IMG/VR virus record: IMGVR_UViG_3300020215_000143
Coordinates: 1 to 22,656 of that record
Strand: one strand, 5' to 3'
DNA from: a virus
Length of the DNA: 22,656 bases
The notes below the pieces were generated by a model. It saw only the letters and a program-made list of their open reading frames with translations, did no database searches and was not told where the DNA came from. The position numbers were made by a program, and so were the translations under genes. Below, in pieces: positions 4,297 to 22,332 of this stretch (position 1 is the stretch's first letter; every line of letters starts with the position of its first letter).

Positions 4297-4578
4297 ATGG
4301 CAAGAAAGATAAAGACGGACGTTGTCCTCACGCCGGCGGCTAGGGAGGTCTTCGCGTCGGAACCCCTGGGCTTGGGCTTGAAAGACCGCAGGTACTTCAA
4401 CTGCGACAATGTGGAGCAGCGAGGCAGTTTCTTGGAATTGGAGGTGAGTTATCCATTCACTTTCTCCGAGAAGGAGGAGTTGGTTTCCTTCCGGATATCT
4501 ATCCCTCTCCACTTCGTACTGTACACAATTACTGCGGACGACGAGACCAAGAGGCAGATGGGGTTCGTTGGAGACTGA
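4297..4578 (+). CDS. Uncharacterised small protein, 93 aa (possible moron)
   Basis: I do not recognise a family. The protein has a basic N-terminus (MARKIKTD), a central beta-rich part with alternating hydrophobic residues, and an ISIPLHFVLYTI strand near residue 70. It has no signal peptide or membrane helix. The gene sits between portal and minor head protein genes, where nothing is required for head assembly. By eye its base composition is less G+C-rich than its neighbours, and a possible promoter lies immediately upstream. Those features suggest an acquired accessory gene (moron) transcribed in the same direction as the structural operon. It could instead be an unassigned small structural protein. 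The next gene starts 11 bases after its stop. Confidence 0.65.
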   Translation: MARKIKTDVVLTPAAREVFASEPLGLGLKDRRYFNCDNVEQRGSFLELEVSYPFTFSEKEELVSFRISIPLHFVLYTITADDETKRQMGFVGD

Positions 4579-4589
4579 CGCGAACGAAA

Positions 4590-4937
4590 ATGCCCGTCCC
4601 TCCCGACCTCCACCGCATGCTCGTCGCCGCCCTCTTGGGCGCGGGAGCGATCCGGACGTCTGACGACCTGGAGGACGAGATCGCCGGCAAGGCGGGCACC
4701 ACTACCTGGACCGCCCTGGTGGAGGACTTCGCCTCGCTGCACGCCGGGAGCCCGAGGAGCCCTCGCGTGGTTGGCGCCTTCTTCCGGGTGCTGATCCGGG
4801 AGGGATACCTCACAGCCGAGGCGCTACTCCCTCCTGCGGCCTACACCGGCCCTCCCGACGGCGAAGAGCTGACCTCCCTGGAGCGGCGGTTCAAGACGAA
4901 GGCCAGCATGCGGGTGGTGAAAGGAGAGAAGGGATGA
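4590..4937 (+). CDS. Uncharacterised phage protein, 115 aa
   Basis: This is an unrecognised soluble protein, mostly helical by eye, with a hydrophobic N-terminal helix (residues 8-20, LHRMLVAALLGAGAIR) that looks amphipathic rather than membrane-spanning. A winged-helix-like rhythm is possible (an ...FFRVLIREGYLTAEAL... stretch around residues 64-80), but I cannot confirm it. The C-terminus is basic. Its stop overlaps the start of the next small gene by four bases (ATGA), and the two are probably co-translated. No clear ribosome binding site precedes the ATG at 4590. Position within the head operon suggests a minor or accessory head function, which is inference only. Confidence 0.65.
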   Translation: MPVPPDLHRMLVAALLGAGAIRTSDDLEDEIAGKAGTTTWTALVEDFASLHAGSPRSPRVVGAFFRVLIREGYLTAEALLPPAAYTGPPDGEELTSLERRFKTKASMRVVKGEKG

Positions 4938-5080
4938 AAGAGGCGCCTCCCGATTGGACCCCCTTCCAGAAGGATCTCCTGCAGGTCATTGAGCGGGCCC
5001 TCGCGGAGAGAGCCGTCCGAGAGGCTGCAGTCCAGGCCAAGGATCGTGACTTCCTCCGCTCCCTCGGCATCCAGCCCTAG
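4934..5080 (+). CDS. Small protein, 48 aa
   Basis: A short gene with a good ribosome binding site (AAGGAG at 4921-4926) seven bases before its ATG, which overlaps the preceding TGA (ATGA). The product is helical and charged, from MKEAPPDWTPFQKDLL to a C-terminal LRSLGIQP, with an Ala/Arg/Glu-rich middle helix. It ends in TAG at 5078-5080, only four bases before the ATG of the minor head protein. That gene has no Shine-Dalgarno of its own, so translation of this 48-aa frame may couple to it. No family is recognised. The gene is supported by start signals and packing on both sides, not by homology. Confidence 0.65.
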   Translation: MKEAPPDWTPFQKDLLQVIERALAERAVREAAVQAKDRDFLRSLGIQP

Positions 5081-5084
5081 CCCC

Positions 5085-6245
5085 ATGTCCTCCAACGACA
5101 ACATCCGGGACGGCACCTTCACCCACGAGGTGGGTCTGCGCCGTCTCGGCGCCCGCTTGGTGCGCGACTTGGTCAAGGTGCTCAACGAGGCCGACCGGGA
5201 GCTGCTCGCCAAGATCGAAGTTCGGCTGCGGGAGATCGAGACCAGGGGCTTCGACCGGGGGCCGTTCACCACGGCTCGGCTGGAGGCCCTCATGCACGAG
5301 CTACGGGGCGTCAACGCGGAGGCGTACAACCGGCTGGGGCTGTTCCTCCGGAAGGAGCTGCGGAACTTGGCTGAGTACGAGGTCGAGTTCCAGGCGCAGC
5401 TCGTGGCGGACTCCGTAGGTGGGGATCTCCGCTTCGCTGCCCAGGCCGGCATCCAAGCCAGCCGCGGCGCCCTGGAGGTCTCTTTGGTTCGCCCCTCCAT
5501 CGAGCAGCTTGTCTCCCTCATCGAGGCGAAGCCCCTCGCCGACGGTCGCCCGATCGCGCGCTGGGCCCGGGATCTCTCGGCCGGCAAGCTGGACCTGTTC
5601 GAGCGTTCGATCCAGCAGGGCATGCTTCAGGGGGAGAACCTCCGGGACATCATGAAGCGGTTCAAGGGCAGCCCGGGAAGCCCTGGCTTGGTGGAGATCC
5701 CGAAGCGCCACTTGGAAACCTGGGCGCTCACTGCGATGCACCACACGGCGAACGAGGCCCGGGACCAGTTCTACGACAAGAACCGGGACGTGGTGAAGGC
5801 CCTAGTGATCGTCGCCACCTTGGACGACCGCACCTGCGAGCAGTGCGTACCCAGGGACGGGAAGCGCTACACCCTGGACCACAAGCCGATCGGCCATGCC
5901 ATCCCGTGGGGAGCAGGGCCAGGCCGTTACCATCCTCGGGACCGGTGCACCTCGCGTCCCGAGCTGAAATCCTGGCGCGAGCTCGGGATCAACCTCAAGG
6001 AGGCGCCGGCCGGCACACGGGAGTCCATGGACGGGGCCGTCTCGGCCTCCCTCTCTGCCGAGGAGTGGCTCCGGAAGCATCCGGAGAGGGCCGTGAAGCT
6101 CTACGGGAAGGAGCGGGCTACGCTGTTCTTGGAGGGCGGCGTCTCGGCCGAGGATCTGGTCAAGAAGGACGGGACTCTGTGGACTCTCTCGGACCTTCGG
6201 GAGCGAGAGAAGGGGGCGTATCGGAAGGCTGGGCTGGCGGCGTAG
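5085..6245 (+). CDS. Minor head morphogenesis protein, Mu gpF / SPP1 gp7-like, 386 aa
   Basis: This family of minor head proteins associates with the portal during prohead assembly and may be ejected with DNA. I chose the ATG at 5085 (MSSNDN) over an upstream TTG at 4989, whose extra 32 residues are low-complexity overlap with the preceding gene. The N-terminal 200 residues are helical. The conserved domain, about residues 220-300, includes WALTAMHHTANEAR, then TLDDRTCEQC (Cys251, Cys254) and GRYHPRDRC (His283, Cys288). This gives the Cys/His pattern of the phage Mu protein F domain. The C-terminus has an EEWL...LSDLRERE segment also common in these proteins. It follows the portal gene after three small genes, normal for this family. 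Confidence 0.9.
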   Translation: MSSNDNIRDGTFTHEVGLRRLGARLVRDLVKVLNEADRELLAKIEVRLREIETRGFDRGPFTTARLEALMHELRGVNAEAYNRLGLFLRKELRNLAEYEVEFQAQLVADSVGGDLRFAAQAGIQASRGALEVSLVRPSIEQLVSLIEAKPLADGRPIARWARDLSAGKLDLFERSIQQGMLQGENLRDIMKRFKGSPGSPGLVEIPKRHLETWALTAMHHTANEARDQFYDKNRDVVKALVIVATLDDRTCEQCVPRDGKRYTLDHKPIGHAIPWGAGPGRYHPRDRCTSRPELKSWRELGINLKEAPAGTRESMDGAVSASLSAEEWLRKHPERAVKLYGKERATLFLEGGVSAEDLVKKDGTLWTLSDLREREKGAYRKAGLAA

Positions 6246-6247
6246 AA

Positions 6248-6274
6248 CGGGCGGCCCCGTGACGAGACCGCCCG
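6248..6274. terminator. Hairpin between convergent genes (possible bidirectional terminator)
   Basis: A perfect 7-bp G+C stem (CGGGCGG / CCGCCCG) with a 13-base loop lies between the stop of the plus-strand minor head gene (6245) and the stop of the minus-strand gene at 6305. No clear T-run follows on either strand, so termination efficiency is uncertain. Position between two convergent stops is the main support. Confidence 0.4.
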
Positions 6275-6304
6275 CGTTCACACTGTGAGGGTTAACCTGT
6301 AGGT

Positions 6305-6520
6305 CTAGATCGGACGCCAGTACCTCACGTCCGCTTCCTTGATCGGGCTACCATCCTCCGCCTCCCAGCCTGATGGCGCACGCTGGCCGCGAGCGGAGGG
6401 AATCGCGGACAGTTCTTCACTCTCGTTGATGAAGGTCGCGAGATCGACCAGTTCACCTTCAGGCGCAGTGTCCAGGGTTCTCCAGCCGTGCAACTCCGAG
6501 ATAAGGCTTCGTTCGACCAT
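6305..6520 (-). CDS. DUF551-like small protein, 71 aa
   Basis: The ATG at 6520 has a strong GGGAGGA ribosome binding site seven bases upstream; longer versions starting at 6583 or 6585 lack one. The protein has the signature of the small phage DUF551-type family: an early W-R-T-L-D-T-A-P segment (residues 14-21), a variable middle, then GWEAEDGSPI and a terminal VRYWRPI. These correspond to the usual WxxIDTAP...GW...ITHWxPLP layout, although the terminal LP is lost. The biochemical function of DUF551 is not known. The gene has its own sigma70-like promoter and lies convergent to the head operon, a moron-like arrangement. A second DUF551-like gene lies about 550 bases away on the same strand. 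Confidence 0.65.
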   Translation of the reverse strand: MVERSLISELHGWRTLDTAPEGELVDLATFINESEELSAIPSARGQRAPSGWEAEDGSPIKEADVRYWRPI

Positions 6521-6571
6521 TGGTGATCCTCCCAAGGACTGGGCGGAGCTTGATCGCTCCACCGCAAAGGA

Positions 6572-6600
6572 AGGATACACCACATTTAATGTTTTATCAA
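6572..6600 (-). promoter_or_regulatory. Sigma70-like promoter for the 6305-6520 gene
   Basis: On the minus strand, TTGATA (6600-6595, five of six consensus -35 bases) and TATCCT (6577-6572, four of six -10 bases) are separated by exactly 17 bases. The segment is A+T-rich in an otherwise G+C-rich region. Transcription would start near 6565 and run into the DUF551-like gene after about 45 bases of leader. Confidence 0.6.
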
Positions 6601-6603
6601 ATT

Positions 6604-6624
6604 GGGATGCCTGGGAAGCACCCC
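6604..6624 (-). terminator. Weak stem-loop after the gp10-like gene
   Basis: Reading the minus strand, GGGGTGC and GCATCCC form a 7-bp stem with one mismatch around a 7-base loop, followed by AATTTG. It lies about 30 bases past the stop of the antiparallel operon and just before the next promoter. The T-tract is short, so this is a tentative terminator. Confidence 0.35.
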
Positions 6625-6653
6625 TAGGTTGCGTGCGGAGGTACCTGCTGCCT

Positions 6654-7064
6654 TTAGGCCGCGTCCAGCATCTGAAGCCCCTCGGACAATGCCAGCTCGA
6701 TGAACTTGGCCGGCGCCCGCTTCGAGTGCCCGTCGTTCAGCTTGAGGATGTACACCACGTTGTTCGTGATGTACACGGTGTCTCCGAACTTCAGCTCGTT
6801 CAGGGCCGCGATGGCGCCAGGTAGCAGGTCCCCCGCAGTGCCGTACTTCTCGGCTCCTTCCGGAGGCTGGAAAGCCGAAGCCTGGCGCACGCTGACCGCC
6901 CAGCCGTTCTGAGCCCGGCCGGTGTCCCTGGGAGTCAACACCACGACACGCCCATGGATGTCCAGCGCCAGCTTCCGGAAGATCAGGACGTACAGCTCCT
7001 CCGTCATGCCCTTGTGCATGGCGTCGAGCTGGGCGAAAAAGGCGCTGAGGTCTACGAAGGCCAC
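6654..7064 (-). CDS. HK97 gp10-like tail completion/neck protein, 136 aa
   Basis: Proteins of this family sit at the head-tail junction and complete the tail end. The recognisable core is TPRDTGRAQNGW (about residues 42-53), followed by a VYITNNVVYI strand pair and the LNDGHSKRAPAKFIE segment near the C-terminus; DTGR...N and GHSK.AP are hallmarks of HK97 gp10-like proteins. I chose GTG at 7064 because the family's usual N-terminus begins near here and because it is two bases after the TAA (7067-7069) that would end the intact upstream DUF551 gene. ATG at 7130 or GTG at 7196 would give longer forms whose extra residues overlap that gene. No strong ribosome binding site is visible. The strand, opposite to all other virion genes except the neighbouring neck gene, is unusual. 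Confidence 0.78.
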   Translation of the reverse strand: MAFVDLSAFFAQLDAMHKGMTEELYVLIFRKLALDIHGRVVVLTPRDTGRAQNGWAVSVRQASAFQPPEGAEKYGTAGDLLPGAIAALNELKFGDTVYITNNVVYILKLNDGHSKRAPAKFIELALSEGLQMLDAA

Positions 7065-7066
7065 TT

Positions 7067-7252
7067 TTAATTCGGTCCGGCCGGCAATGGCTGCCAGTGA
7101 GTGATCGGGCCGAGCTACTGGGACCACCATTCTGGCCGATACATGCTGCGGTAGCAGCCAATCGACGCAAGACCGCGGCCAGAAGCGGAGTGCCACACGA
7201 GCACGAGCAGGTTCTCGGCCGGCAGGCGCTCCGAGACAGCGATCCAGCTCAC
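7067..7252 (-). pseudogene. DUF551-like gene interrupted by an in-frame TAG
   Basis: GTG at 7252 has a perfect GGAGGT ribosome binding site six bases upstream, and the frame begins VSWIAVSERLPAENLLVLV, the usual DUF551 N-terminus. It reaches TAG at 7117-7115 after 45 codons. Without that stop the same frame continues LGPITHWQPLPAGPN to TAA at 7069-7067; ITHWQPLP is the diagnostic DUF551 C-terminus. The gene is therefore intact in frame across a single amber codon. TAG ends other genes in the window (6245, 9370, 12136, 14326), so a phage-wide TAG reassignment is unlikely. Options are a recent nonsense mutation, suppressor- or readthrough-dependent expression, or a sequencing error. It lies between the neck gene and the gp10-like gene and may couple translation of the latter. 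Confidence 0.75.
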
Positions 7253-7274
7253 TCCGGCACCTCCAACCACTCCC

Positions 7275-7868
7275 TCACGCCCTCACTTGTAGTTCCCAAA
7301 GCGCCACCTGTTCAGCGGCGTAGGTGGCCTGGACGCCCTCGATCGACCGCACCGGGGCGGAGAGATCGGAGCCCAGGAGGATGAGGTCCCCTTTGCGGGG
7401 CTCGGAAGGGAAAGCCTCTCCGGAGGCGAGTACCTTCTGGTCCCCGTGCTGAACCTGCTTCCCGTCGATCGCCTTGAGAGCGTAGGACTCAATCCGGCCC
7501 TTGAACTCGGTCAGGATGCCGCGCTGGACCAAGACCAGCTTGCCAGCGGCCTCGTCCGTGAGGGCGCGATCCACGGCCAGCCAGAGGGCCTCGACGGCGG
7601 TCACCTCGGCCCAGCCGTTGTTCGCGGCCGTGGAGAAGCCCTGGACCCGAACCACGTCGCCGACGGCGTAGCCCTCCGCGGTCCACGAGCCGGAAACCCT
7701 CCGGAGGGAGTCGTCCGACGCCACGACCGAGATGTCTGAGGCCCGGGTCTGGGCAGCCGTCCCGTTGCCGGGGGAGAAGGTGCCGGAGAGCCGAACGTGA
7801 AGGAGAGCCTTCTGGTCGGCCAGGAGGGACGTGGCGAGGGCGCGGAAGGTCTGGTCAAGGGATGCCAT
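7275..7868 (-). CDS. Head-tail neck (head closure-like) protein with small inserted domain, 197 aa
   Basis: I chose the ATG at 7868, which overlaps the upstream stop (TGATG); an upstream in-frame start at 7937 would overlap that gene. The C-terminal half, roughly residues 115-197, has the layout of phage neck/adaptor proteins: YALKAIDGKQVQHGD (dG..vq.GD), a segment with PRKGDLILLG, and a final WELQVRA strand. The N-terminal MASLDQTFRALATSLL helix is also typical. Between them, residues about 42-115 form a compact beta module with VGDVVRVQGF...NNGW...LTDEAAG. The same pattern is present in the tail tube protein of this phage. The assignment as a neck protein comes from motif recall and the adjacent gp10-like gene; a generic tail protein is the alternative. 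Transcription is opposite to the main virion operons. Confidence 0.65.
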   Translation of the reverse strand: MASLDQTFRALATSLLADQKALLHVRLSGTFSPGNGTAAQTRASDISVVASDDSLRRVSGSWTAEGYAVGDVVRVQGFSTAANNGWAEVTAVEALWLAVDRALTDEAAGKLVLVQRGILTEFKGRIESYALKAIDGKQVQHGDQKVLASGEAFPSEPRKGDLILLGSDLSAPVRSIEGVQATYAAEQVALWELQVRA

Positions 7869-8095
7869 CAGAAGCCGTCCTCGCGCTTGACGTAAACCAG
7901 CCGAGCAACACAACCCTGGTTGTCGGTCTCTACCCAATACTCCTCGTGGTCCTTGGTAACCAGGATGTCCACTACCCCTTTGCCGTCGGTTCGCTTGACT
8001 AGCGCAGAAAAGCGTTTGCCGGGCAGGTAGCGGTCCACGACTTCCTGGCCTCTGTCGAACGGGATGACCTCAGCTAAGGGGATGCGCTCGTTCAT
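7868..8095 (-). CDS. Uncharacterised small protein, 75 aa
   Basis: The gene begins with ATG at 8095 overlapping the stop of the XRE gene (ATGA) and ends in a TGA sharing one base with the ATG of the neck gene. The product starts MNERIPLAEVIPF and then looks like a small beta-sheet protein: FSALVKR, VVDILVTK, EYWVET and CVARLVYVKRE are four alternating strands, mixed with many charged residues. No catalytic motif, signal peptide or membrane segment is visible and I do not recognise a family. Being sandwiched between a DNA-binding regulator and a neck gene, it could be a partner of the regulator (for example a toxin/antitoxin-like pair) or a small virion protein; neither is shown by sequence. 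Confidence 0.7.
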   Translation of the reverse strand: MNERIPLAEVIPFDRGQEVVDRYLPGKRFSALVKRTDGKGVVDILVTKDHEEYWVETDNQGCVARLVYVKREDGF

Positions 8096-8334
8096 GCCGC
8101 CAACCCCAGCGCCTGGAGCACCACCTCGCCCTTCATCCCCAGCGCCTTCATGAGCCAGGGGAGCGGCTCGGAGGTGTCGAACCGGAACGTGGTCCGTGTC
8201 CGCTCCAGATATTCCACAGTCTTGTGATCGATCTCCGGAGCGCCCGGGAGACGGCTCGCAACTTCTGCGAGTTTCTCCCTGCTCCAGCCGCGGCTCCTGC
8301 GCGCACGCTGCACCTCGTCGCCAATTCGGGACAT
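8092..8334 (-). CDS. XRE-family HTH transcriptional regulator, 80 aa
   Basis: I chose the ATG at 8334 because AGGAGG (8350-8345) lies ten bases upstream; a TTG at 8343 would leave only one base between them. The sequence follows a Cro/CI-type helix-turn-helix: IGDEVQRARRSRGWSREKLAEVA (helices 1 and 2), a recognition-helix region around IDHKTVEYLER, and a closing WLMKALGM helix. It is a bare DNA-binding domain with no dimerisation or cleavage domain, like Cro-type or antitoxin-type regulators. A palindrome that includes a TACAAT -10-like box lies just upstream, suggesting autoregulation. It leads an operon in which the next genes overlap by 1-4 bases, so it may control the antiparallel neck genes. 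Confidence 0.8.
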   Translation of the reverse strand: MSRIGDEVQRARRSRGWSREKLAEVASRLPGAPEIDHKTVEYLERTRTTFRFDTSEPLPWLMKALGMKGEVVLQALGLAA

Positions 8335-8380
8335 AGGCCCCAAACCTCCTAAAGTCTATAACCTTCCGGAACTACCTAAA

Positions 8381-8398
8381 GCTACTACGGATTGTAGC
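8381..8398 (-). promoter_or_regulatory. Candidate operator/promoter of the XRE-led operon
   Basis: An 18-base imperfect palindrome has arms GCTAC and GTAGC around an 8-base centre. On the minus strand it includes TACAAT (8396-8391), a five-of-six match to a -10 box, so a bound regulator would block this promoter. No convincing -35 hexamer is seen. About 50 bases of leader would precede the XRE start codon. Confidence 0.45.
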
Positions 8399-8443
8399 AC
8401 TTCGGGTGGTGCTCCGCTATTCCTGGTGCTTTCATGGAGCTGT

Positions 8444-8502
8444 GAGCGCTCCGGCACCGTTCTCCTGTCCCTCCTCATCCGGTCTCCTCGGCCGGAGCGC
8501 TC
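8444..8502. repeat. 12-bp perfect inverted repeat in the divergent control region
   Basis: GAGCGCTCCGGC (8444-8455) and its exact reverse complement GCCGGAGCGCTC (8491-8502) flank a 35-base loop that is pyrimidine-rich on the plus strand. A 9-base direct repeat CTGTGAGCG also occurs at 8440-8448 and 8513-8521. The structure lies upstream of the scaffold/coat operon and could act as a leader hairpin, terminator or protein-binding site; no T-run follows it. Confidence 0.6.
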
Positions 8503-8575
8503 GCTTTCCCGACTGTGAGCGAGATGCCACAGCCGGAACCCCTGGCGAGACGCCGGGAAAGCGAGGCGAGAAGCC

Positions 8576-9370
8576 GTGAAGCCGAAGTTGCTGAAGGTCC
8601 AGGTCAACGGGACCGAAGTTGAAGTCTGTGAAGTGAAGGACGGAAAGCCCGTCGCTGTCCATTCGGATGGCCGAGAAGTGCCGTTCGACATGGTCCATGC
8701 CGTGGACACGATCAAGAAGGTTTCCGACGAGCGCGACGAGGCCCGGACGAAGTTGACCGAGACCTCGAAGCTGTTCGAGGGCCTCGACGCCCAGGCCGCC
8801 CGCGAGGCGATCGAGAAGCTCAAGAAGATCGACGAGAAGAAGCTGATCGACGCCGGGCAGGTGGACACCGTCAAGGCGGAAGCCCAGCGCGCCCTGCAGG
8901 AGCAGCTCGACAAGCAGAAGAACGACTACGAGGCGAAGCTCCAGGGCTCTCAGTCCGTCATTCGCAAGCTTTCCATCGGCAACCAGTTCGCCACGTCCAA
9001 GCTGTTCAACGGCGAGGAAGCCACCTTCATCCTTCCGCCCGTCGTGGCTGAGTCCTACTTCGGTAAGTACCTCGACGTCGACGCGAACGGCAGCTTCGTC
9101 GCGTACTACGACGAGGCCAAGAAGCAGCCCATCTTCAGCCGCGAGAGGCCCGGCGAGAACGCCTCGTTCGAGGAGGCGATCACCGCCTTGGCCGACCGCG
9201 ACCCCAACAAGGACCGCTTCACCCGCGCGAGCGGCTCCGGCGGCAGCGGTGCGCCCGCTCCGACTGGCGGCAAGCCCGGCGGCAAGACCATGCAGCGCTC
9301 TCAGTTCAACGCTCTGCCCCCGGGCGAGCAGATGAAGTTCGTGAAAGACGGAGGCCAGGTCTCCGGCTAG
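8576..9370 (+). CDS. Capsid scaffolding protein, 264 aa
   Basis: Scaffolds guide coat assembly and leave the prohead afterwards. The N-terminal ~45 residues form a small beta domain (LLKVQVNGTEVEV). Residues about 48-135 are a long charged coiled coil rich in Glu, Lys and Ala, and the C-terminus has a Gly/Pro-rich linker followed by MQRSQFNALPPGEQM and a short KDGGQVSG tail. That C-terminal R-x-x-F-x-x-L...FVKxGG pattern is common in scaffolds encoded just before P22-type coat genes. The start is GTG with GAGG nine bases upstream. It is immediately followed by the coat gene (40 bases), the expected order. It is the first gene after the control region at 8335-8575. Confidence 0.85.
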   Translation: MKPKLLKVQVNGTEVEVCEVKDGKPVAVHSDGREVPFDMVHAVDTIKKVSDERDEARTKLTETSKLFEGLDAQAAREAIEKLKKIDEKKLIDAGQVDTVKAEAQRALQEQLDKQKNDYEAKLQGSQSVIRKLSIGNQFATSKLFNGEEATFILPPVVAESYFGKYLDVDANGSFVAYYDEAKKQPIFSRERPGENASFEEAITALADRDPNKDRFTRASGSGGSGAPAPTGGKPGGKTMQRSQFNALPPGEQMKFVKDGGQVSG

Positions 9371-9410: not shown

Positions 9411-10547
9411 ATGGCGAACACCCTCACGGGCCTCATTCCCGATCTCTACGAGGCGGTCGACGTCGTCAGCCGCGAGCTGACCGGTTTCATCCCGGCGGTC
9501 ACAATGGATGCCATGGCGGAGCGCGCGGCGAAGGACCAGGTGGTCTACGTGCCGATCTCCCCGACCGCGACGGCCGAGGACATCACGCCTGGGACCACTC
9601 CTCCGGACACCGGCGACCAGACCTTCGACAAGACGCCGATCACGATCACCAAGTCCCGGGCGGTCCCGTTCCGCTGGACCGGCGAGGAGCAGAAGAGCGT
9701 CAATAGCGGGCCCGGCTACTCGAACCTCCGTCGGGACCAGATCGCCCAGGCCATCCGCGCGCTGGTCAACGAGGTGGAGACCGACCTCGCGGGCCTCTAC
9801 ACCCGCGCTTCCAGGGCCCACGGGACGGCCGGCACCACTCCGTTCGCCAGCAACCTCTCGGATACCGCCCAGGTGCTCAAGATCCTGCTGGACAACGGCG
9901 CTCCGCCGAGCGATCTGCACCTGGTGATCAACACTACGGCCGGCGCCAACATGCGGAGCCTGTCGCAGCTCACCAAGGCGAACGAGGCTGGCGATCAGGG
10001 CCTTCTTCGGCAGGGCATCCTGCTCGACATCCACGGCTTCTCGATCCGCGAGTCCGCCCAGGTCAAGGCCCACACCAAGGGCACCGGCTCCGGGTATCTC
10101 GTGAACGACGCCACCCCTCCGGGCATCGGGGGTACGACCATCACCGTGGACACCGGCACCGGCACGATCCTGGCCGGCGACGTGATCACCCTGGCGGGCG
10201 ACACGAACAAGTACGTCGTCGGAACTGCACTCGGCTCCAACGTGGTGACCATCAACAAGCCCGGCCTGCGAGCTGCTTCAGACGATGACGACGCAATCAC
10301 CGTCGGCAACAGCTACACCGCGAACATGGCCTTCCATCGCCGGGCAATGATCCTGGCGGCTCGCCTGCCTGCTCTTCCGGAGGAGGGCGACATGGCCACC
10401 GATCGTCAGGTGATCGTCGATCCCCGAACTGGCCTTGCCTTCGAGTTCTCGATCTATCCCGGCTACCGGCGCGTTCGGTATGAGGTCGCGCTCGCCTGGG
10501 GTGTAGCCAACATCAAGCCTGAGTTCACCGCCCTGCTGCTCGGGTAA
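9411..10547 (+). CDS. Major capsid protein, P22 coat-like, 378 aa
   Basis: This is the shell subunit of the head. The N-terminus MANTLTGLIPDLYEAVDVV and the following stretch with GFIPAV, VPISPTATAEDITPG and RWTGEEQ match the P22 coat protein 5 family (HK97 fold with an extra inserted domain). The middle holds a beta-rich segment with LAGDVITLAGDTNKYVV (about residues 258-275), the usual position of a coat insertion in this family. It ends with a YRRVRYEVALAWGVANIKP strand. The length is a little short of P22 coat (430 aa) but typical of siphoviral relatives. An AAAGGGA ribosome binding site lies before the ATG. It is probably one of the most strongly expressed genes here. Confidence 0.93.
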   Translation: MANTLTGLIPDLYEAVDVVSRELTGFIPAVTMDAMAERAAKDQVVYVPISPTATAEDITPGTTPPDTGDQTFDKTPITITKSRAVPFRWTGEEQKSVNSGPGYSNLRRDQIAQAIRALVNEVETDLAGLYTRASRAHGTAGTTPFASNLSDTAQVLKILLDNGAPPSDLHLVINTTAGANMRSLSQLTKANEAGDQGLLRQGILLDIHGFSIRESAQVKAHTKGTGSGYLVNDATPPGIGGTTITVDTGTGTILAGDVITLAGDTNKYVVGTALGSNVVTINKPGLRAASDDDDAITVGNSYTANMAFHRRAMILAARLPALPEEGDMATDRQVIVDPRTGLAFEFSIYPGYRRVRYEVALAWGVANIKPEFTALLLG

Positions 10548-10760: not shown

Positions 10761-11270
10761 TTGGCCCTAATCGACGAAGACGGCACCGGCAAGGCGGATG
10801 CGGAGTCCCTGTGCTCCGTGTCCGCTGCCAACGCCTACCACGAGGGACGTACCGGCACCGCCCTGGCCACGGCTTGGGCCGCTGCCGGCGACCCTGCGAA
10901 GGAAAGCGCTCTGCGCCAGGCGACGGACTGGCTGGAGGGCGAGTATGCCGCTCTCTGGCCGGGGCGCAAGAAGACCTCCGCGCAGGCTCTGTCGTGGCCC
11001 CGCTACGGCGCTTACGACATCAACAACCTACCGATCGACGAGTCCAGCGTGCCGGTCCCGGTGGTGAAAGCCTGTGCAGCCCTCGCTGCCAGGGCTCTTT
11101 CCACGCCGCTTAGCGCTGATCTGACCCGGTCCACCTACGTGAAGAGCCAGTCGGTGGGATCTCTCTCGCAAACCTTTGCGGACGGTGCTCCTGCGGAGAC
11201 GGTCTATACCGAAGTGCATCGGCTCCTGGCTCCACTCCTCCAGCCGGCGAACAAGATGGTGAGGGCCTGA
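10761..11270 (+). CDS. Head-tail connector, DnaT-like family, 169 aa
   Basis: The start is TTG at 10761 with AGGAG nine bases upstream; the N-terminus MALIDEDGTGKADAES is the conserved start of the phage family annotated as putative DnaT-like ssDNA-binding protein. Further family features are the ANAYHEGR segment (about 28-35), a LRQATDWLEGEY helix, ALSWPRYG and the VPVPVVKACAALAARAL helix. Despite the name, proteins of this family located right after the coat gene are generally taken as head-tail connectors (the gp6-like first neck ring), and I follow that reading from context. The length is normal and there are no signs of damage. The HExxH gene follows after three bases. Confidence 0.78.
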   Translation: MALIDEDGTGKADAESLCSVSAANAYHEGRTGTALATAWAAAGDPAKESALRQATDWLEGEYAALWPGRKKTSAQALSWPRYGAYDINNLPIDESSVPVPVVKACAALAARALSTPLSADLTRSTYVKSQSVGSLSQTFADGAPAETVYTEVHRLLAPLLQPANKMVRA

Positions 11271-11273
11271 CCA

Positions 11274-11747
11274 ATGGACTTTCGCTGGGGCAATGGTCCG
11301 TCCAGCCTCCTGGCGGGAGCCGTCGAATTCAAGGTGAAGCCCGCCCGCTTCAATCCGTTTGCGCTACCTTTCCGCCATTACTGGCGCGTAATCGTTTTCC
11401 CCTCGAAGAAGGCGATGCACTCCTACGGCCACTGGCGCTCTCCGAGGCCGGAGAACAAGAGCGGCTATGAAGGGATCTGCATTCCGTTCTGGCGCTGGAA
11501 TCCACTGACGGAGCAGCCGGGCCCGAAGCTCGGAGAAGTCTTGTTCTATCGGGGCCGTCTCGGCACGTCTGTGATCACTCACGAAGCGATTCATGTCACC
11601 GCGTCGACGATGCGAGTCCTGGTCAACCGTGAGGCGGTTGATCTCGGTGACGAGAACGGTGATCCGGAGGAGCGGTTCGCGTACACGCACTGCTCGCTCT
11701 GCCGACAGCTTGTCGATGGCTTTCACGCTGTGGGGCTTCTCGGATGA
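11274..11747 (+). CDS. HExxH zincin-like protein in the neck cluster, 157 aa
   Basis: Residues 103-107 read HEAIH, a zincin HExxH motif preceded by a hydrophobic strand (TSVIT). A possible third ligand lies in EERFAY (Glu132/Glu133), followed by a helix (CRQLVDGF). This is the active-site layout of a small metallopeptidase. The N-terminal ~95 residues are beta-rich with many aromatic residues and look unlike secreted peptidases; there is no signal peptide. It lies between the DnaT-like connector and the tail terminator, where many phages have head closure and gp10-like neck genes. In this phage those are on the opposite strand. It may process a virion protein or be an inactive structural derivative. 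The start ATG at 11274 is three bases past the previous stop. Confidence 0.65.
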   Translation: MDFRWGNGPSSLLAGAVEFKVKPARFNPFALPFRHYWRVIVFPSKKAMHSYGHWRSPRPENKSGYEGICIPFWRWNPLTEQPGPKLGEVLFYRGRLGTSVITHEAIHVTASTMRVLVNREAVDLGDENGDPEERFAYTHCSLCRQLVDGFHAVGLLG

Positions 11748-12136
11748 ACACAGAAGAGACCCTGCTCGCCCTGAACTCCTGGTGGGCCAACAACTGGACC
11801 GCCAGCCCCACGGACTACGACGGGAGCACCACCTACGCCGATCAGCAGTCCGGCTCGTGGGCGCGACTGACCATCCTTCCGGGGAAGCCTCGGTCCTTCC
11901 TGGGACAGTACATCCGGGAGAACCAGGGCATGCAGGTAGTCAGCCTGTTCGCCCGGGACGCCTCGCTTGCCCTGAACCTCGGCCAACGCGCCGAGACGCT
12001 GATCCAGGACGCGATCACCAGCCCGCCATCCGGCGTGACTTTCGAGACTCCCTACCTTCGGGTCCTGGGGCAGGACGAGCACGGCTGGTACAGGACCGAG
12101 GTTTCCGTGGACTACCACGTCACGCAGGCCCTCTAG
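11744..12136 (+). CDS. Tail terminator-like protein (DUF4128-type), 130 aa
   Basis: Tail terminators cap the tail tube and join it to the neck. The ATG overlaps the preceding TGA (ATGA). The protein starts with an amphipathic helix (TLLALNSWWANNW), then SWARLTILPG, a GQYIRENQGMQVVSLFA strand pair, the AETLIQDAI helix and a final YRTEVSVDYHVTQ strand. That alpha-beta-beta-alpha-beta arrangement and the closing beta strand fit the DUF4128 / gpU-like terminator group. Position directly before the tail-tube region supports it. The small 12149 gene follows after 12 bases. Confidence 0.75.
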   Translation: MNTEETLLALNSWWANNWTASPTDYDGSTTYADQQSGSWARLTILPGKPRSFLGQYIRENQGMQVVSLFARDASLALNLGQRAETLIQDAITSPPSGVTFETPYLRVLGQDEHGWYRTEVSVDYHVTQAL

Positions 12137-12345: not shown

Positions 12346-13503
12346 ATGGAAACGAATCTCGTTCAGGGAAGGATCATCGAGGAAGTCACCCGGGGCACCA
12401 CGCCGGCGACCACCATGCAGAACATCAATCTGCGGTCCATGGCGATGACCCGCAACCGGACCACGGGTACCCCGGACATCCTACGAGGTGACCGGCGGCG
12501 GTACGCGGACCAGGTGCTCCAGGAGCACGGCGTCGTCTCGCTGCCGACGCTCTTCCAGTACGACAACACGACCCTCCTGCAGGAGGGCTTCATGCAGTCC
12601 GACTGGAGCTCGGCGATCAGTATCTCGGCCACCACGATCGGCTTCACCAGCGGCACCGGAGTGATTGCCGACAGCGGCAACGGCTTGGGCTCGCTCCAGG
12701 TCGGCGACTTCATCTGGATCTCCGGGGCGGCCCAGACCGGCAACAACGGCTGGCACGGCCCGATCACAGCTGCGGCGGCAGGCAGCATCACGGTCGCGAC
12801 CACGCTCACCACGGAAGCGGCCGGGGCTTCGGTGTCCATCAAGACTTGTCGCCTCGTGGACGGTTCGACGAGCAAGAGCTACGGCGTCGAATGGGACGCC
12901 GGCTCCTCTCAGGTGCGCCAGGCCAAGGGCCTCCGGGTCGGCGCGATGAACCTCTCCTGGAAGTCGGGCTCCTTCGTGGAGGAGTCCTACGAGTTGATGG
13001 GCAACGCTCCCGCGATGGCAAGCGCCACGATGGGGACCGGAGCGCCGACGGCGGCTCCCACCGGTCCCTTCCTCAACGCCCTGGGGAACTTCGCCTATCT
13101 GAAGCTCGGCGGTACCACTTCGACGCTCATCATCTCGTCCTTCGACTTCAAGGGGGCGAACGCGCAGGAGGGGCTCTACGGGATCGGCTCGACTGCCGGC
13201 CCGCGGGACATCTCCGACGGGGGGCTCTCGATCGCGGTGGACCTCAGCTACTACTTCGACAGCACCGATGGCAGGTCTCTCCAGGAACTGATCGAAGCGC
13301 ACACCACGACCTCGCTTTGGTGGCCGACCGTGGACAGCCTCGGCAACAAGGTGCTCTTCCACCTCCCCGCCCTCAAGCCCAACACCGGGGATCCCGAGAT
13401 CCCCGGCACCAACCAGCGAATCATGGGCAAGGCCTCTCTGGCGGCCTTCGCCGATGACACCACCTACGACCGCATGTTCGCGATGTTCAAGGTCGCGGCC
13501 TAA
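12346..13503 (+). CDS. Tail tube protein, 385 aa
   Basis: This is the major subunit of the tail tube. It begins with a regular N-terminal sequence (IIEEVTRGTTPATTMQ) common to large siphoviral tube proteins, then RSMAMTRNRTTGTPDILRG. Residues about 90-166 are an extra beta module (LQVGDFIWISGAAQTGNNGW ... LTTEAAG) like the one in this phage's neck protein. Later segments (WKSGSFVEESYELMGNAPA, FDFKGANAQEGLYG, KASLAAFADDTTYDRMF) fit a tube fold with an extended C-terminal part. It lies between the terminator and the G/GT chaperones, the normal order. The ribosome binding site is weak, so translation may couple to the preceding small gene. Confidence 0.85.
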   Translation: METNLVQGRIIEEVTRGTTPATTMQNINLRSMAMTRNRTTGTPDILRGDRRRYADQVLQEHGVVSLPTLFQYDNTTLLQEGFMQSDWSSAISISATTIGFTSGTGVIADSGNGLGSLQVGDFIWISGAAQTGNNGWHGPITAAAAGSITVATTLTTEAAGASVSIKTCRLVDGSTSKSYGVEWDAGSSQVRQAKGLRVGAMNLSWKSGSFVEESYELMGNAPAMASATMGTGAPTAAPTGPFLNALGNFAYLKLGGTTSTLIISSFDFKGANAQEGLYGIGSTAGPRDISDGGLSIAVDLSYYFDSTDGRSLQELIEAHTTTSLWWPTVDSLGNKVLFHLPALKPNTGDPEIPGTNQRIMGKASLAAFADDTTYDRMFAMFKVAA

Positions 13504-17300: not shown

Positions 17301-20098
17301 TCGGAGCCTCGACCAGCATTATCGACGGAGCCGCCAGCGGTGGCAGCGGAAACGCCGCCCTGGCGAACAGCCTCGCCGGTTGGGCCCTCGCAGCCTATGG
17401 CTTGTACGTCGTGTACAAGGGCTTTATCGAGGACCGGGACACCCGGTGGGCCTACGCCAGCACTAGGGGCGCCAGCGACGGCAACAACAAGGGGCCAAAG
17501 GAAACCGTCCGCAACGCCATCAAGCAGATCGTGGCTGCCGCCGAGGATCTTGCGAAGCAGGTAGACCTCGCCTACGAGCAGGTGGGGGATGTCACCTTCG
17601 CCCGGCGCGGGAAGCTGTTCGAGGTGCGGATCGGCGCAGAGGCCATCGGCCGAGTCTTCGAGGACTTCAACCAGGCCGCCGAGTACGCGACCGTTCAGGC
17701 TCTGCGTACCGCCGAGCTGAGCGGCAACCTTTCCGACCTGGTCCGGACCGGTATCCGGGGAAGCAAGGCCGAGACCCGCCAGGACTTCGCGGCGGACGTC
17801 GAGTTCGTCCGCTGGTTGGAGCAGATCCCGTTTGCCGAGGCCGCCACAGGGGCGGCGGACATCGCGCAGCAGATGCGGGAGCTGTCGCAAACCTACGACC
17901 AGCACCTCGCCAAAGTCGACCAGCTCTATAGGGGCACGAATCAGTATCAGGCAGCCCTGGAGAACCTCTCGACCTGGTTCCAGCGGTCGGCTCAGGGCCT
18001 CCGGGACCAGATTCTCGGTGTCCAGCGCACCGAGGCCGAGCGGATCCGCGCTCAAGCCGAGGAGTACAACCGCCTCGCACTCCTGGAGCGCCAGAGGCTT
18101 CTGGAGGAGCGTCGAGCGGCTGAGGAGTACCGGCAACGACTCCTTCGCCAAGCCGAGCGGCGAGAGGCCGGCGAGGGTGGACCCCGGGCCGGTGGTGGTG
18201 GCGGCACCAACGGTGGGGGACAAGAGGGCGGTCCCACTCGCGGCTCCATGTATTCCGTCGCCACGGGCGCCATGGGCGTCTTCGCCTCCTCGCTCGTGAT
18301 GGTCACCGAGGCTGCCCTAGGGAGCGCCTCCGCGCTCGCAACGGCCGGCAGCTTGGTGGGCCTCTCCCTGGCTGAGATCGAAGCCCGGATCGCAACCCTG
18401 AACGCTCAGATCGAGAGTCTCGCCCCCATCTCGGAGGAGGAAATCCAGGCGGCGATCCGTCGGGCTCAAGGCGCAGCCAACGAGGCTCGGCAACAGCAGC
18501 GGCAGGCGCTCCGGGATCAGCTTGAGGACCTGCGGAACGCCTCCCTCTCAGAGCCGGCGCAGATGGTCGCCCAGACAGCCCGCCAGATCAGAGACTGGAC
18601 GGAAGCGGCGCGGGAAGCCGGCTTGACGGCGGCCGAGACGGCAGAGGGTGTTCGCCTCCTTGGCGAAGCCCTAGGCCGCGCCCTCCGCGAGCGCATCGCC
18701 CCCTTGTTGAACCGGAACTACGGCCTTCCCGACTTCGTCGAGGAGTACCGGCGGAACCAGCGGGAGATTGAGGCGCAGCGCCGCATCCCTCGTTCCCAGC
18801 GGATCGCCAACGGAGGTCCCCGGGATTGGGAGTTGAACGACGCCGAGCGGAACAACCGGGACAACTTCCAGTTCCAGGCTCGTCAGGCCATCGACGCCTT
18901 CGCGGGTCTCTCCGGGGGCATGGCCGCCACCCTGCGCCAGGCGGATGGCCTCCGGCGTGCCGTGCGGGAGATGGGGCTCTCCGCCGAGGAGACCGACCAG
19001 CTCCTGCGGCGCATTGACTTCGGTGTGGACCTCCAGCGCCAGAACGCCATTAACTCGATCATGGACCGGATCTTCGGCTACCTGCGCGAGAGCGGCCAGT
19101 ACGCCCGTCAGGCGGCCGAGTTCGAGCGGCAGAAGGTGAACCTGGAGTTCATGCTGATCGAGGCCGAGTTGCGGGCCTGGAACGCCTGGACGGAGGAAGC
19201 GGCCGGGCTGGTGAATTCCGCCCGCGAGATCGCGCTCCGGAACGCGGGACAAGCTGGCAACGCGAGCCGAGGTGGCGGTAGGGGAGGCGCAGACCCGCTC
19301 CAGGCGGCCCAGGAGGAGCAGGCTCGTCGCATCCAGGATCTTACCGAAGAGTTCAAGCGGACGACGGAGTCTCTCCGGGCCTTCCAGCAGGACCTGCGGC
19401 TGGACGATCAGCTCTCGGGCCTCTCTCCGCAGCAGCAGCTCGCCGAAGCGGAGAGGCGGTACCGGGAGGTACAGGCTCTCGCTCTGGGCGGCGACGTGGC
19501 AGCGCGAGGGGAGTTCGAGCAGGTGGCGCGCGCCTACCTCTCAGAGTTGCGGGACTTCGGCACCTCCGCGGGTGTGCGCGCCGCAGCCTTCGAGGACGTG
19601 GACAGCACCCTCACGCGGCTCCTGGGCATGACCACCTTCCGGGACGGAAACGTCCTCGTGCCGGTCAACGGCTTCGGCTCACAGAACGCGGCATCGGGGG
19701 CGGCCTCCCGCCCGGTGCGTTACACGGATCAGTACATCCTGCCCAAGGATCCGATGGGCGACCGGCCGAACCTGCCCGATCGCCCGGACCGGCCCGTGCC
19801 GGTTGTCGAGTTTCCGCGCCCCAAGCCGGCGCCTATCCCTCCCGGGATGGATTCCGCGAGAGACAACGCAGCGCTGGATCGCCTCGATCGTCTCGAAGCG
19901 ACCATGAAGGAGGTTAAGGAGGTGCTTCTTTCGATCGGGAAGGAAGTCGCCGGCAACCGCACCGACAACAAGGCGCTGCTCAGCCAGCTCGTGGAAGAGA
20001 TTGAGCAGGACTCGGCGACAAACGATGACCTGCGGGCGAAGTTCGGGCGCCTCCTGGAGCTGATGCGGGACAAGCCTACGAAGGGGAAGGCTGCTTGA
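14330..20098 (+). CDS. Tail tape measure protein, 1922 aa
   Basis: It sets tail length, occupies the tube lumen and helps DNA delivery. Residues about 1-160 are charged and helical; a first hydrophobic segment lies near 164-185. Residues about 190-400 contain a prophage tail-length domain with GVRSTGG, AILLTFTNISGDIFPRATRA and GGSMQALSIQIGDLAEM. Long coiled coils follow (about 500-930). A run of nine glycines (954-962) precedes two more hydrophobic segments, near 1008-1032 and 1306-1346. The C-terminal part is helical again, then Pro-rich (about 1812-1840), ending in a coiled coil. At the lambda ratio (853 aa for about 135 nm) the tail would be roughly 300 nm, an estimate only. Its terminal codons GGGGAAGG supply the ribosome binding site for the next gene. 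It follows the GT frame directly. Confidence 0.95.
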   Translation: MSFEATAQIKLDGSQYVAAVETSGRSIKQLKDACVGADQAMRSMDRSVATGTTQNRALAGSTSGAAKSLSQMRTEAAATGAALRPTNDNAVRLAQSTVRLREEAVKFSPAAQRAAVGLKEVDQSARRAAEGLDRAGKEGAETARQMAGVSAASAGVVRSLKEIATGAAALGVAYAVWRGFTAGLRESIAGAVEAESAFAQLEAGVRSTGGAAGFSAQELADYSTELQRFTGVSDEAIQGAQAILLTFTNISGDIFPRATRAILDLSARMGGDLSGAATLAGKALNEPAEGLSALSRWGVQFSESQELAIKQMVKAGDVAGAQTVILAELERQFGGSARAARETLGGSMQALSIQIGDLAEMAGGEMSPALKGLSNDLAGASREGQGLQGQAENLARSMGQTAGAVIEAGRWILSSYSTIRGAIASALGTFFGALASMGDGVAQYLEQQLTIIGKVVPWAEWARRGAEEIADFRKGALQDLRFLSEGFHETAEEQLALGINTQNVGVAAQAAAGALAGLKEETQQLSAEQKKAVAATDDSIAVLRRAAEEAERMRAANAKGPQQGRDEALLIAQENAVRQIRNALLKAGLDLSVHEVAAINESVAAKIRAGQADAVREAHEARTLEMTRARLQSEAELQDAISGTRDASMAVTARIQAEDQAKRELRENDESYIRVLAQQNLERAKSAQAADYEKQRVGWQKDHARTMADLDAQLADAINRTSTATYERAEALEVERRAAVAGLKAGDDRIEQIRREVAAEMESLRAKQGRIDAQNRLDAALDAVAFSRAEGADFAQQAEAARRYGADVADILAKYGLLSDATRELGVQEQIRAAIQAEGLSSQNAGHRKRMSEIEAEIRGNDALTRQEAERRAQQEIAQRTADHIREPLVGAVNATKAAWEDWLVHAARTGEVSFKSIAKAWLDIWIEAMARWLARWLATIAQGKAAEAALGSGGGGGGGGGWMQWAGKLMGGSGGQYSWLSGSTPAGSNLGASTSIIDGAASGGSGNAALANSLAGWALAAYGLYVVYKGFIEDRDTRWAYASTRGASDGNNKGPKETVRNAIKQIVAAAEDLAKQVDLAYEQVGDVTFARRGKLFEVRIGAEAIGRVFEDFNQAAEYATVQALRTAELSGNLSDLVRTGIRGSKAETRQDFAADVEFVRWLEQIPFAEAATGAADIAQQMRELSQTYDQHLAKVDQLYRGTNQYQAALENLSTWFQRSAQGLRDQILGVQRTEAERIRAQAEEYNRLALLERQRLLEERRAAEEYRQRLLRQAERREAGEGGPRAGGGGGTNGGGQEGGPTRGSMYSVATGAMGVFASSLVMVTEAALGSASALATAGSLVGLSLAEIEARIATLNAQIESLAPISEEEIQAAIRRAQGAANEARQQQRQALRDQLEDLRNASLSEPAQMVAQTARQIRDWTEAAREAGLTAAETAEGVRLLGEALGRALRERIAPLLNRNYGLPDFVEEYRRNQREIEAQRRIPRSQRIANGGPRDWELNDAERNNRDNFQFQARQAIDAFAGLSGGMAATLRQADGLRRAVREMGLSAEETDQLLRRIDFGVDLQRQNAINSIMDRIFGYLRESGQYARQAAEFERQKVNLEFMLIEAELRAWNAWTEEAAGLVNSAREIALRNAGQAGNASRGGGRGGADPLQAAQEEQARRIQDLTEEFKRTTESLRAFQQDLRLDDQLSGLSPQQQLAEAERRYREVQALALGGDVAARGEFEQVARAYLSELRDFGTSAGVRAAAFEDVDSTLTRLLGMTTFRDGNVLVPVNGFGSQNAASGAASRPVRYTDQYILPKDPMGDRPNLPDRPDRPVPVVEFPRPKPAPIPPGMDSARDNAALDRLDRLEATMKEVKEVLLSIGKEVAGNRTDNKALLSQLVEEIEQDSATNDDLRAKFGRLLELMRDKPTKGKAA

Positions 20099-22332
20099 TC
20101 GTTTCGCTGGGGCCCTTCGGATGGCTGCCGCTGGGGTCTCTACCGCCCGGCAGCGACGCATCTGTTCCTAATCCAGTTGCGGCCCTCCTGGACGACGCAA
20201 CCGGCAGGAAAACGATCCTGCTGCGTGCCCGTCCCTATGACCCTGTTGGCGCCCAGATCGTGGACGTGCTGATCTCGAACGATGGGTATGCCTCAGGTGC
20301 TACGGATACCTGGCCGGACGGCACTTCTCAGCCGCACCAGAAATTCAGAGCCCGCCTGGGAAAGCCGGCCTATTCGATTGAAAGCGGAGTCCTCAGCGGC
20401 GGTGAGATCACGGATGGTTCGGTGCCTGCCTTCGGCGAGCAGAACGTCATCAACACCGACGGCGAGTTGAACGACCATCTCGGATACGTCTGGGAAGGCG
20501 CGAGCCTGGAGACGTACCTCGGCGCGCCGTCCTGGCCGCTCCAGGACTTTGCCTTGATCGGCAAGGGCTCCTGCGCCGGCATCGAGCCGTCTCTTCTGGG
20601 CTACACAATTCGCTTTCGGGATCCCGCCTACCGCCTGAAGCGGCGGAACATGCACACGCAACGGTACAGGGGGCACGACACCTGCCTACGATTCGATGGG
20701 GTCGACGACCGAGCGACAGGTGGCAACAACCTGAACCAGACCGGTTCCTGCACCTTCGAGATCTGGGCTTGGCCGGAAACGGCGGGAAGCTTCGGCAGGC
20801 TGTTCTCCAAGGACGACGGGGTGACGGGCTGGACCATCTTCGTAGACAGCGACGACATCTTCTTCTTCATCCGAGGCGGAACGCTGGTCAGCACCTCGGG
20901 CGACAGGCTCACCCGAAGTCAGTGGAACCACATCGCCGTGGTGCTCGATGTGGTGGCGGACACCGTCACCTTCTATGTCAACGGTGAGCAGGTTGGGCAG
21001 ACGACGTCCTACACTACGGTACCCGCGACGAACACGCACACGTTCTCGATCGGTGCGCGCCATGATGGCGCCTCGCCCTTCAAGGGCCGACTCGACGAGC
21101 CGCGCGTGTGGACGGGAGTTGCGCGCTCGGCTCAGGAGATCCGGGACAACTACCTCCTGCAACTCCCCTCGCAGGCAAATCTGAGCTACTGGTCCTTCGA
21201 CGATGCGACCGGGGCAACCGCCTTCGGCGACTCGGGCGCTGTGAACCTCACCATCACGGGGGCCCGCTGGGTGGACAGCCTCACCGGGGGCAAGGAGCTG
21301 GCTGGCCAGGCCGTGCCGACCATCTGGGGCCGGGTGCTGAAGTACCAGCCTGTCCTGGTAGGCCGCCTCGGCAACGTATACCAGGTCCACGACGACGACT
21401 TCGAGGAGGTGACCACGCTGGAGGATGGCGGGGTGGTCTCCTGGACTTCGGCTGGCGACTTCACCGATCCCGACGACGCCACTTTGACAGCCGGGCAGTA
21501 CTGCACCTCGAAGGCTCGCGGCCTCATCCGCCTTGGCTCTGCGCCGGTTCGAACGCTCACGGCGAATCTCAAGGGCGACAACACGGGCGGCTATGTTGAA
21601 GACGGGGCGCAACTCGTTCGCAGGATCGCGACGGGCCGCGGCGGCCTCACGGACCCGGACGAAATCGACCTCGCGAGCTTCGCCGCGATGGTGACGACCA
21701 ACTCGGCGCCTCTTGGCTACGCCACCCGGTTGGACACGGAATCGGTGGACGAGGTCATCGTCACGATCATGCGGACGCTCTACGGATGGCGCACGTTCAC
21801 CCGGCAAGGGTTGCTGGCGGTTGGACGGCTGGACGAGCCGGGCACTCCGCGCTTCACCCTGGGGCGGAAGACCCTCCGAAAGTTGAGCCTGCGGCGAATC
21901 AACACCTCGCCCGCATCGAAGGCATGGAAGCTGGGCTATGCCCGCTACTACCAGACGCTGAATCCCGAAGGGCTGGCGACGTCCTTGACACAGCAAGAGA
22001 AGCTCGACCGTGGCCAGTCGTACCGCTACGTCACCACTCCGGAGGATGCCTCGGTCGTGGCAGCCGACACCGACGCCGAGGTGCTCGAAGAGGACACCCT
22101 CTTCGCCCTAGAGGCGGACGCACTGGCCGAGGCGATCCGTCGCCAGGCGATCACCGGCGTGCCGCGGTACACCTACGAGGCGCCCCAGACGATCGGCCTC
22201 TACCAGTACGCGATCAACGACGACGCCGAGCTCGAAGTCAACCTGCACGCCCACAGCGGGAACTGGCCGTGCACTATCGTGCGCTACTCGGAGCGGGTGC
22301 CGGATGCCGTGGCGCTGGAGGTATGGGGCTGA
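20095..22332 (+). CDS. Tail hub/tip protein with inserted LamG lectin-like domain, 745 aa
   Basis: The start is TTG at 20095 overlapping the tape measure stop (TTGA). Residues about 40-195 and 400-745 resemble the N- and C-terminal halves of large phage tail hub proteins; key marks are YRG at the end of the first part and ELAGQAVPTIWGRVLKYQPVLV plus GNVYQVHDDDFE at the start of the second. Between them, residues 197 to about 395, lies a concanavalin A-like LamG domain: CLRFDGVDD, FEIWAW, WNHIAVVLD, VTFYVNGEQVG, KGRLDEPRVW and then YWSFDDATG. LamG domains bind glycans, so this may contact the host surface. The insertion falls in the loop that normally reads YRGtg..EG..dLaG. The C-terminal part has no cleavage or peptidase motif that I can see. 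Confidence 0.8.
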   Translation: MIVSLGPFGWLPLGSLPPGSDASVPNPVAALLDDATGRKTILLRARPYDPVGAQIVDVLISNDGYASGATDTWPDGTSQPHQKFRARLGKPAYSIESGVLSGGEITDGSVPAFGEQNVINTDGELNDHLGYVWEGASLETYLGAPSWPLQDFALIGKGSCAGIEPSLLGYTIRFRDPAYRLKRRNMHTQRYRGHDTCLRFDGVDDRATGGNNLNQTGSCTFEIWAWPETAGSFGRLFSKDDGVTGWTIFVDSDDIFFFIRGGTLVSTSGDRLTRSQWNHIAVVLDVVADTVTFYVNGEQVGQTTSYTTVPATNTHTFSIGARHDGASPFKGRLDEPRVWTGVARSAQEIRDNYLLQLPSQANLSYWSFDDATGATAFGDSGAVNLTITGARWVDSLTGGKELAGQAVPTIWGRVLKYQPVLVGRLGNVYQVHDDDFEEVTTLEDGGVVSWTSAGDFTDPDDATLTAGQYCTSKARGLIRLGSAPVRTLTANLKGDNTGGYVEDGAQLVRRIATGRGGLTDPDEIDLASFAAMVTTNSAPLGYATRLDTESVDEVIVTIMRTLYGWRTFTRQGLLAVGRLDEPGTPRFTLGRKTLRKLSLRRINTSPASKAWKLGYARYYQTLNPEGLATSLTQQEKLDRGQSYRYVTTPEDASVVAADTDAEVLEEDTLFALEADALAEAIRRQAITGVPRYTYEAPQTIGLYQYAINDDAELEVNLHAHSGNWPCTIVRYSERVPDAVALEVWG

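Follow-up and report, generated by a model that had tools for sequence, protein, structure and literature searches.

Inverted and displaced head-closure and tail-completion genes in a phage genome fragment

The head-closure protein Hc1 and the tail-completion protein Ne1 normally close the phage head and connect it with the tail, and their genes lie among the structural genes. Hc1 belongs to the stopper family, whose members share the beta-barrel fold known from lambda gpFII and close the portal channel of virions as a dodecameric or hexameric ring. In Type 1 necks, the genes follow the order Ad1-Hc1-Ne1-Tc1, represented in SPP1 by gp15-gp16-gp16.1-gp17 (Lopes et al. 2014, PMC4362835), and the order of neck genes is sufficiently conserved for use in phage classification (PMC4362835). 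Loss of Ne1 leads to poorly infectious particles in lambda (gpZ) and to tails unable to join heads in P2 (gpS) (PMC4362835). A small, distant structural cluster located on both strands is described for a Stenotrophomonas myophage, with no neck genes named in the passage that describes it (PMC9025141). Within the terms searched, no description of inverted Hc1 or Ne1 genes was found in the literature.

The stretch of DNA analysed here, referred to as the window, is an IMG/VR virus record of 22,656 bases representing a linear fragment of an incomplete genome. All four protein families of the SPP1-like Type 1 module are present in it, but their order in one series is not: Hc1 and Ne1 are inverted and displaced, and are found on the opposite strand some 3-4 kb upstream of Ad1, away from the module. 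Furthermore, a DUF551 gene splits Hc1 from Ne1, and an unrelated gene encoding an HExxH protein lies between Ad1 and Tc. Caulobacter phage DMCA (PQ480021) and the siphovirus isolate ctIqW946 (MW202657) arrange their terminase, portal, scaffold, P22-type coat, Ad1 and tail genes as the window does, whereas their Hc1 and Ne1 genes directly follow Ad1 on the same strand. Pseudanabaena phage Pan1 (ON968452) likewise combines a P22-type coat with accessory genes between the Mu F-like (MuF) and scaffold genes, two of them on the minus strand, and its Ne1 is the closest annotated one to that of the window (42%); its inserted genes, however, are not neck genes and its Hc1-Ne1 pair is canonical. Ne1 has also left its place between Hc1 and Tc in Mesyanzhinovviridae and similar phages (Bhz59, HD01), where it follows the genes for tube and chaperone without a change of strand.

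On the plus strand, the window encodes a small DUF2280 protein, by its position a candidate small terminase, followed by the large terminase, a DUF4055 portal, the MuF head protein, a scaffold-like protein and a P22-type coat protein, and continues with the adaptor Ad1, tail terminator, tail tube, chaperone, tape measure and a large tail protein that has a lectin-like domain. Many relatives combine the same portal, scaffold and coat families. The concanavalin A-like lectin domain of the large tail protein (20095-22332; Laminin_G_3, E 4e-26, residues 207-349) is possibly involved in receptor binding. The leader of the scaffold gene (8444-8565) contains two inverted repeats with perfect 12-base arms (8444-8455/8491-8502 and 8500-8511/8554-8565), and its plus-strand RNA is predicted to fold modestly better than shuffled sequences (z -2.0). 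The features of the region from MuF to the tail tube are listed in Table 1.

Table 1. Genes and sites between the MuF and tail tube genes of the window
Feature	Position	Strand	Best support	Remark
Mu F-like head morphogenesis protein	5085..6245	+	PHROG 241 E 4.5e-97, Pfam Phage_Mu_F	left border of antiparallel block
71-aa orphan gene	6305..6520	-		3' end of block; own Shine-Dalgarno-like site
Ne1 / HK97 gp10-like tail-completion protein	6654..7130	-	PHROG 169 'tail completion or Neck1' E 3e-26
Small DUF551 protein	7115..7252	-	Pfam PF04448 23.6 bits, cutoff 22	between neck genes
Head-closure (Hc1/stopper) protein, 197 aa	7275..7868	-	PHROG 161 'head closure Hc1' E 5.9e-11
75-aa protein	7868..8095	-		no known family
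Small helix-turn-helix (HTH) protein, 80 aa	8092..8334	-	Pfam HTH_31 E 2e-4	below curated cutoff
Extended -10 promoter-like site TGCTACAAT	8391..8399	-	consensus match	upstream of antiparallel operon
Scaffold-like protein	8576..9370	+	PHROG 784 E 2.8e-52; PHROG 206 'head scaffolding' E 3e-19	right border of block
P22 coat-type major capsid protein	9411..10547	+	58.9% identity to Acinetobacter phage qsb1 capsid; 52.5% to Rhizobium phage P106B
Adaptor Ad1 (Pfam DnaT_2 family)	10761..11270	+	PHROG 477 E 8.5e-42
157-aa HExxH protein	11274..11747	+	PHROG 30714 (unknown function) E 8.6e-6	canonical Hc1-Ne1 slot; motif HEAIH
Tail terminator Tc	11744..12136	+	PHROG 179 E 8.4e-8
Tail tube protein	12346..13503	+	Pfam Phage_tube_2 E 1e-16	shares beta module with Hc1

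Between the MuF and scaffold genes lies a minus-strand block that reads leftwards as HTH, 75-aa, Hc1, DUF551, Ne1 and 71-aa genes. The first-pass annotation had placed neck-type genes antiparallel to the other virion genes, which is borne out by strand and order, with two additions: the small DUF551 gene separates the two neck genes, and the block extends further, to the 71-aa gene (6520-6305). The short overlaps it had described are present (4 bases between the HTH and 75-aa genes, 1 base between the 75-aa and Hc1 genes), and its label of the leading protein as an XRE regulator, of Cro/C1 type, corresponds to a sub-threshold match to HTH_31 (22 bits against a cutoff of 27). An AGGAGG-type ribosome site precedes the HTH gene. 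The 75-aa protein gave no match of note in Pfam, PHROG, NCBIfam or a phage tblastn search, and the 71-aa protein gave none in family searches including PHROG and Pfam, its likeness to DUF551-type proteins being visible by eye only. As in the Type 1 neck, Hc1 precedes Ne1 in transcription order. Inverted repeats flanking the block that could explain an inversion were looked for and not found.

Both neck assignments made in the first-pass annotation were upheld by the family matches in Table 1 and also by profiles built without the window sequence, which gave E 1.1e-6 for Hc1 and E 5.3e-24 for Ne1. Each of these profiles picks only its own minus-strand ORF in the window, with the next best match at an E value of at least 2. 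The start of Ne1 is uncertain: ATG 7130 would give a protein of 158 aa, GTG 7064 one of 136 aa. In alignments, Ne1 retains the family-conserved residues TPxDTGRAxxxW and N..Y...L..GhS..AP. The AlphaFold model of Ne1 (mean pLDDT 77), compared with solved structures, agrees with the SaPI1 neck tail-completion protein 9mu2_P (Z 8.0, rmsd 2.9, 95/109 residues), the next match reaching only Z 3.2. By Foldseek alone the Ne1 model matched weakly, and a PDB sequence search with the Ne1 profile returned nothing relevant.

For Hc1, a family profile that includes the window sequence matches the solved 'stopper protein gp12' (E 1.9e-14); the window protein alone gives no match to it. The AlphaFold model is of low confidence over residues 1-116 and confident in the C-terminal half. 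Residues 116-197 align with the lambda neck protein 8k37_M at Z 6.8 (rmsd 2.9, 66 aligned) and with 8gtf_M at Z 6.6, values to be read against unrelated beta-barrel chains that reach 6.7. At 197 aa, the window protein is longer than its relatives with a clear start (112-136 aa) owing to an insertion of about 80 aa in the N-terminal half (residues 39-122). This inserted beta module (7500-7755, minus strand) aligns with residues 119-166 of the tail tube protein encoded by the same phage (12700-12843, plus strand), at 40% identity over 48 aa (E 3e-6, z 8.2 relative to shuffled sequences). It also has weak matches among the tail-tube proteins of Brevundimonas phages. A tube profile even scores stronger on the Hc1 ORF than the Hc1 profile does, and the module was not seen in the Hc1 proteins of the relatives compared. 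It seems that the stopper took up a module in use on the tail tube.

The first-pass annotation had also noted that the plus-strand neck region (10761-12136) lacks Hc1 and Ne1, and indeed it holds only Ad1, the HExxH protein and the tail terminator. A gap of 3 bases separates Ad1 from the HExxH gene, which shares 4 bases with Tc; its motif is metalloprotease-like, and profiles detected no Hc1- or Ne1-like signal in its product. A profile search of all frames revealed no second Hc1- or Ne1-like ORF in the 22.7-kb fragment.

The arrangement was compared with 23 other loci (about 18 distinct) in which this coat family occurs with Hc1 or Ne1, drawn from IMG/VR, GenBank phages and GTDB genomes. In all 23, Hc1 and Ne1 lie on the coat strand, making the window the sole inversion in the sample; the same inverted block, sought in these related genomes, was found in none of them. 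The best terminase relative found in the terminase scan, locus L095 (62% terminase and 48% capsid identity), has a canonical neck. A scan of genome contigs yielded six capsid relatives, none of them inverted where the neck was recognised. Among viral contigs, Ne1 retrieved five weak relatives; Hc1, the HExxH protein, MuF, portal and tube retrieved none.

MuF and scaffold genes almost adjoin in some relatives and are 0.75 to over 4 kb apart in others (L061, L062, L082/L083). In L061 the gap (4811-8929), which lies within the head gene cluster, contains a HigB toxin gene, an adjoining HTH/Peptidase_M78 gene and another HTH gene, with HTH genes on the minus strand. Given the minus-strand and HTH genes in the gaps of relatives such as L061 and Pan1, this region takes up accessory cassettes, sometimes antiparallel and with a regulator. 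Hc1 and Ne1 agree with the rest of the window in GC and codon usage, their codon bias of 0.37 and 0.26, like that of the DUF551 gene (0.29), falling in the range of the plus-strand core (0.23-0.41). The 75-aa (0.09), 71-aa (0.04) and HExxH (0.12) genes are atypical and the HTH gene is intermediate (0.21). Elsewhere in the window, two orphan genes lie between portal and MuF (4297-4937), the first of which shows strongly atypical codon usage (-0.09) at a GC of 0.53.

Upstream of the block, the extended -10 motif TGNTAYAAT occurs at 8399-8391 on the minus strand, approximately 57 bases before the HTH start codon. It is the only one in the window, where 0.08 would be expected and 6 of 100 shuffles contain at least one. 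Its -35 region is poor, and a sigma-70 scan made no call there. Between this site and the HTH gene lies a 12-base near-repeat, AACCTCCTAAAG / AACTACCTAAAG, which could be an operator or could have arisen by chance. The earlier suggestion that the neck genes are under a separate regulator stands in part: the block probably forms its own minus-strand transcription unit, preceded by a promoter-like site, while control of the cassette by the HTH protein is something we propose rather than observe.

We consider it fairly probable that Hc1 and Ne1 are the phage's own neck pair, relocated and inverted into an accessory ('moron') cassette with its own promoter, and that they most likely are working neck proteins. 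The two middle genes of a Type 1 (SPP1/HK97-like) siphophage neck would have left the Ad1-Hc1-Ne1-Tc series and moved, inverted, into a cassette between the head-morphogenesis and scaffold genes, and the HExxH gene would have filled the vacated slot, though the events may have taken place in another order. Both proteins would then be made from their own minus-strand mRNA starting at the extended -10 near 8391-8399, with the small HTH protein encoded at its head most likely autoregulating the cassette. We infer that the site works as a promoter and that these are the only Hc1 and Ne1 copies in the genome. The first-pass annotation had left open whether they are the only neck proteins or extra copies; the former fits better because the slot is filled by another gene, conserved residues are kept and codon usage is native, although a second neck set may lie outside the record, as this is a 22.7-kb fragment. 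In another explanation, which we regard as unlikely, an extra Hc1-Ne1 pair was captured from another phage as a moron, and the real neck genes lie outside the fragment or were replaced by other proteins. The block does sit at a site of accessory genes together with HTH, DUF551 and orphan genes, and the nearest relatives of Ne1 (Pan1, HD01, Bhz59) differ from those of Ad1 (DMCA, L014). All virion genes of the window, however, are mosaic in their best matches, each with different nearest relatives, so that this mismatch is not special; moreover, the neck codon usage is native, and the canonical slot lacks Hc1 and Ne1, both of which lie inside the head-tail module in relatives.

An assembly artefact, in the form of a chimeric contig that includes an inverted or foreign segment, would be in line with the single metagenomic record and with the scans, which found no second genome with the junction. 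We nevertheless hold it to be very improbable: merely inverting the block would not bring back the canonical order, given that another gene tightly occupies the slot after Ad1, Hc1 and Ne1 resemble the rest in GC and codon usage, and neighbouring genes of the block overlap neatly. The exact fit of the HExxH gene into the canonical slot might also mean that the neck role passed to its product or to other plus-strand proteins that went unrecognised, leaving the minus-strand pair as a decaying or repurposed remnant. There is just a slim chance of this, since both minus-strand genes are intact with conserved residues, whereas the HExxH gene looks foreign and its product combines a metalloprotease-like motif with no Hc1- or Ne1-like signal.

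Returning to the relocated working pair, a more far-reaching idea, which we put forward only tentatively and regard as rather doubtful, is that the essential head-tail joining genes were uncoupled from the late operon of structural genes and came under a local HTH-controlled promoter, by which the supply of stopper and tail-completion protein would be timed or dosed separately, with the stopper gaining a tube surface module. The arrangement is unusual but built of known parts. A flipped and displaced neck pair suggests that the canonical order is not mechanically required, and the phage is a natural case in which the importance of co-transcribing the neck genes could be tested. Detection of necks by gene context, which relies on tolerated gene distances, would miss necks of this kind.
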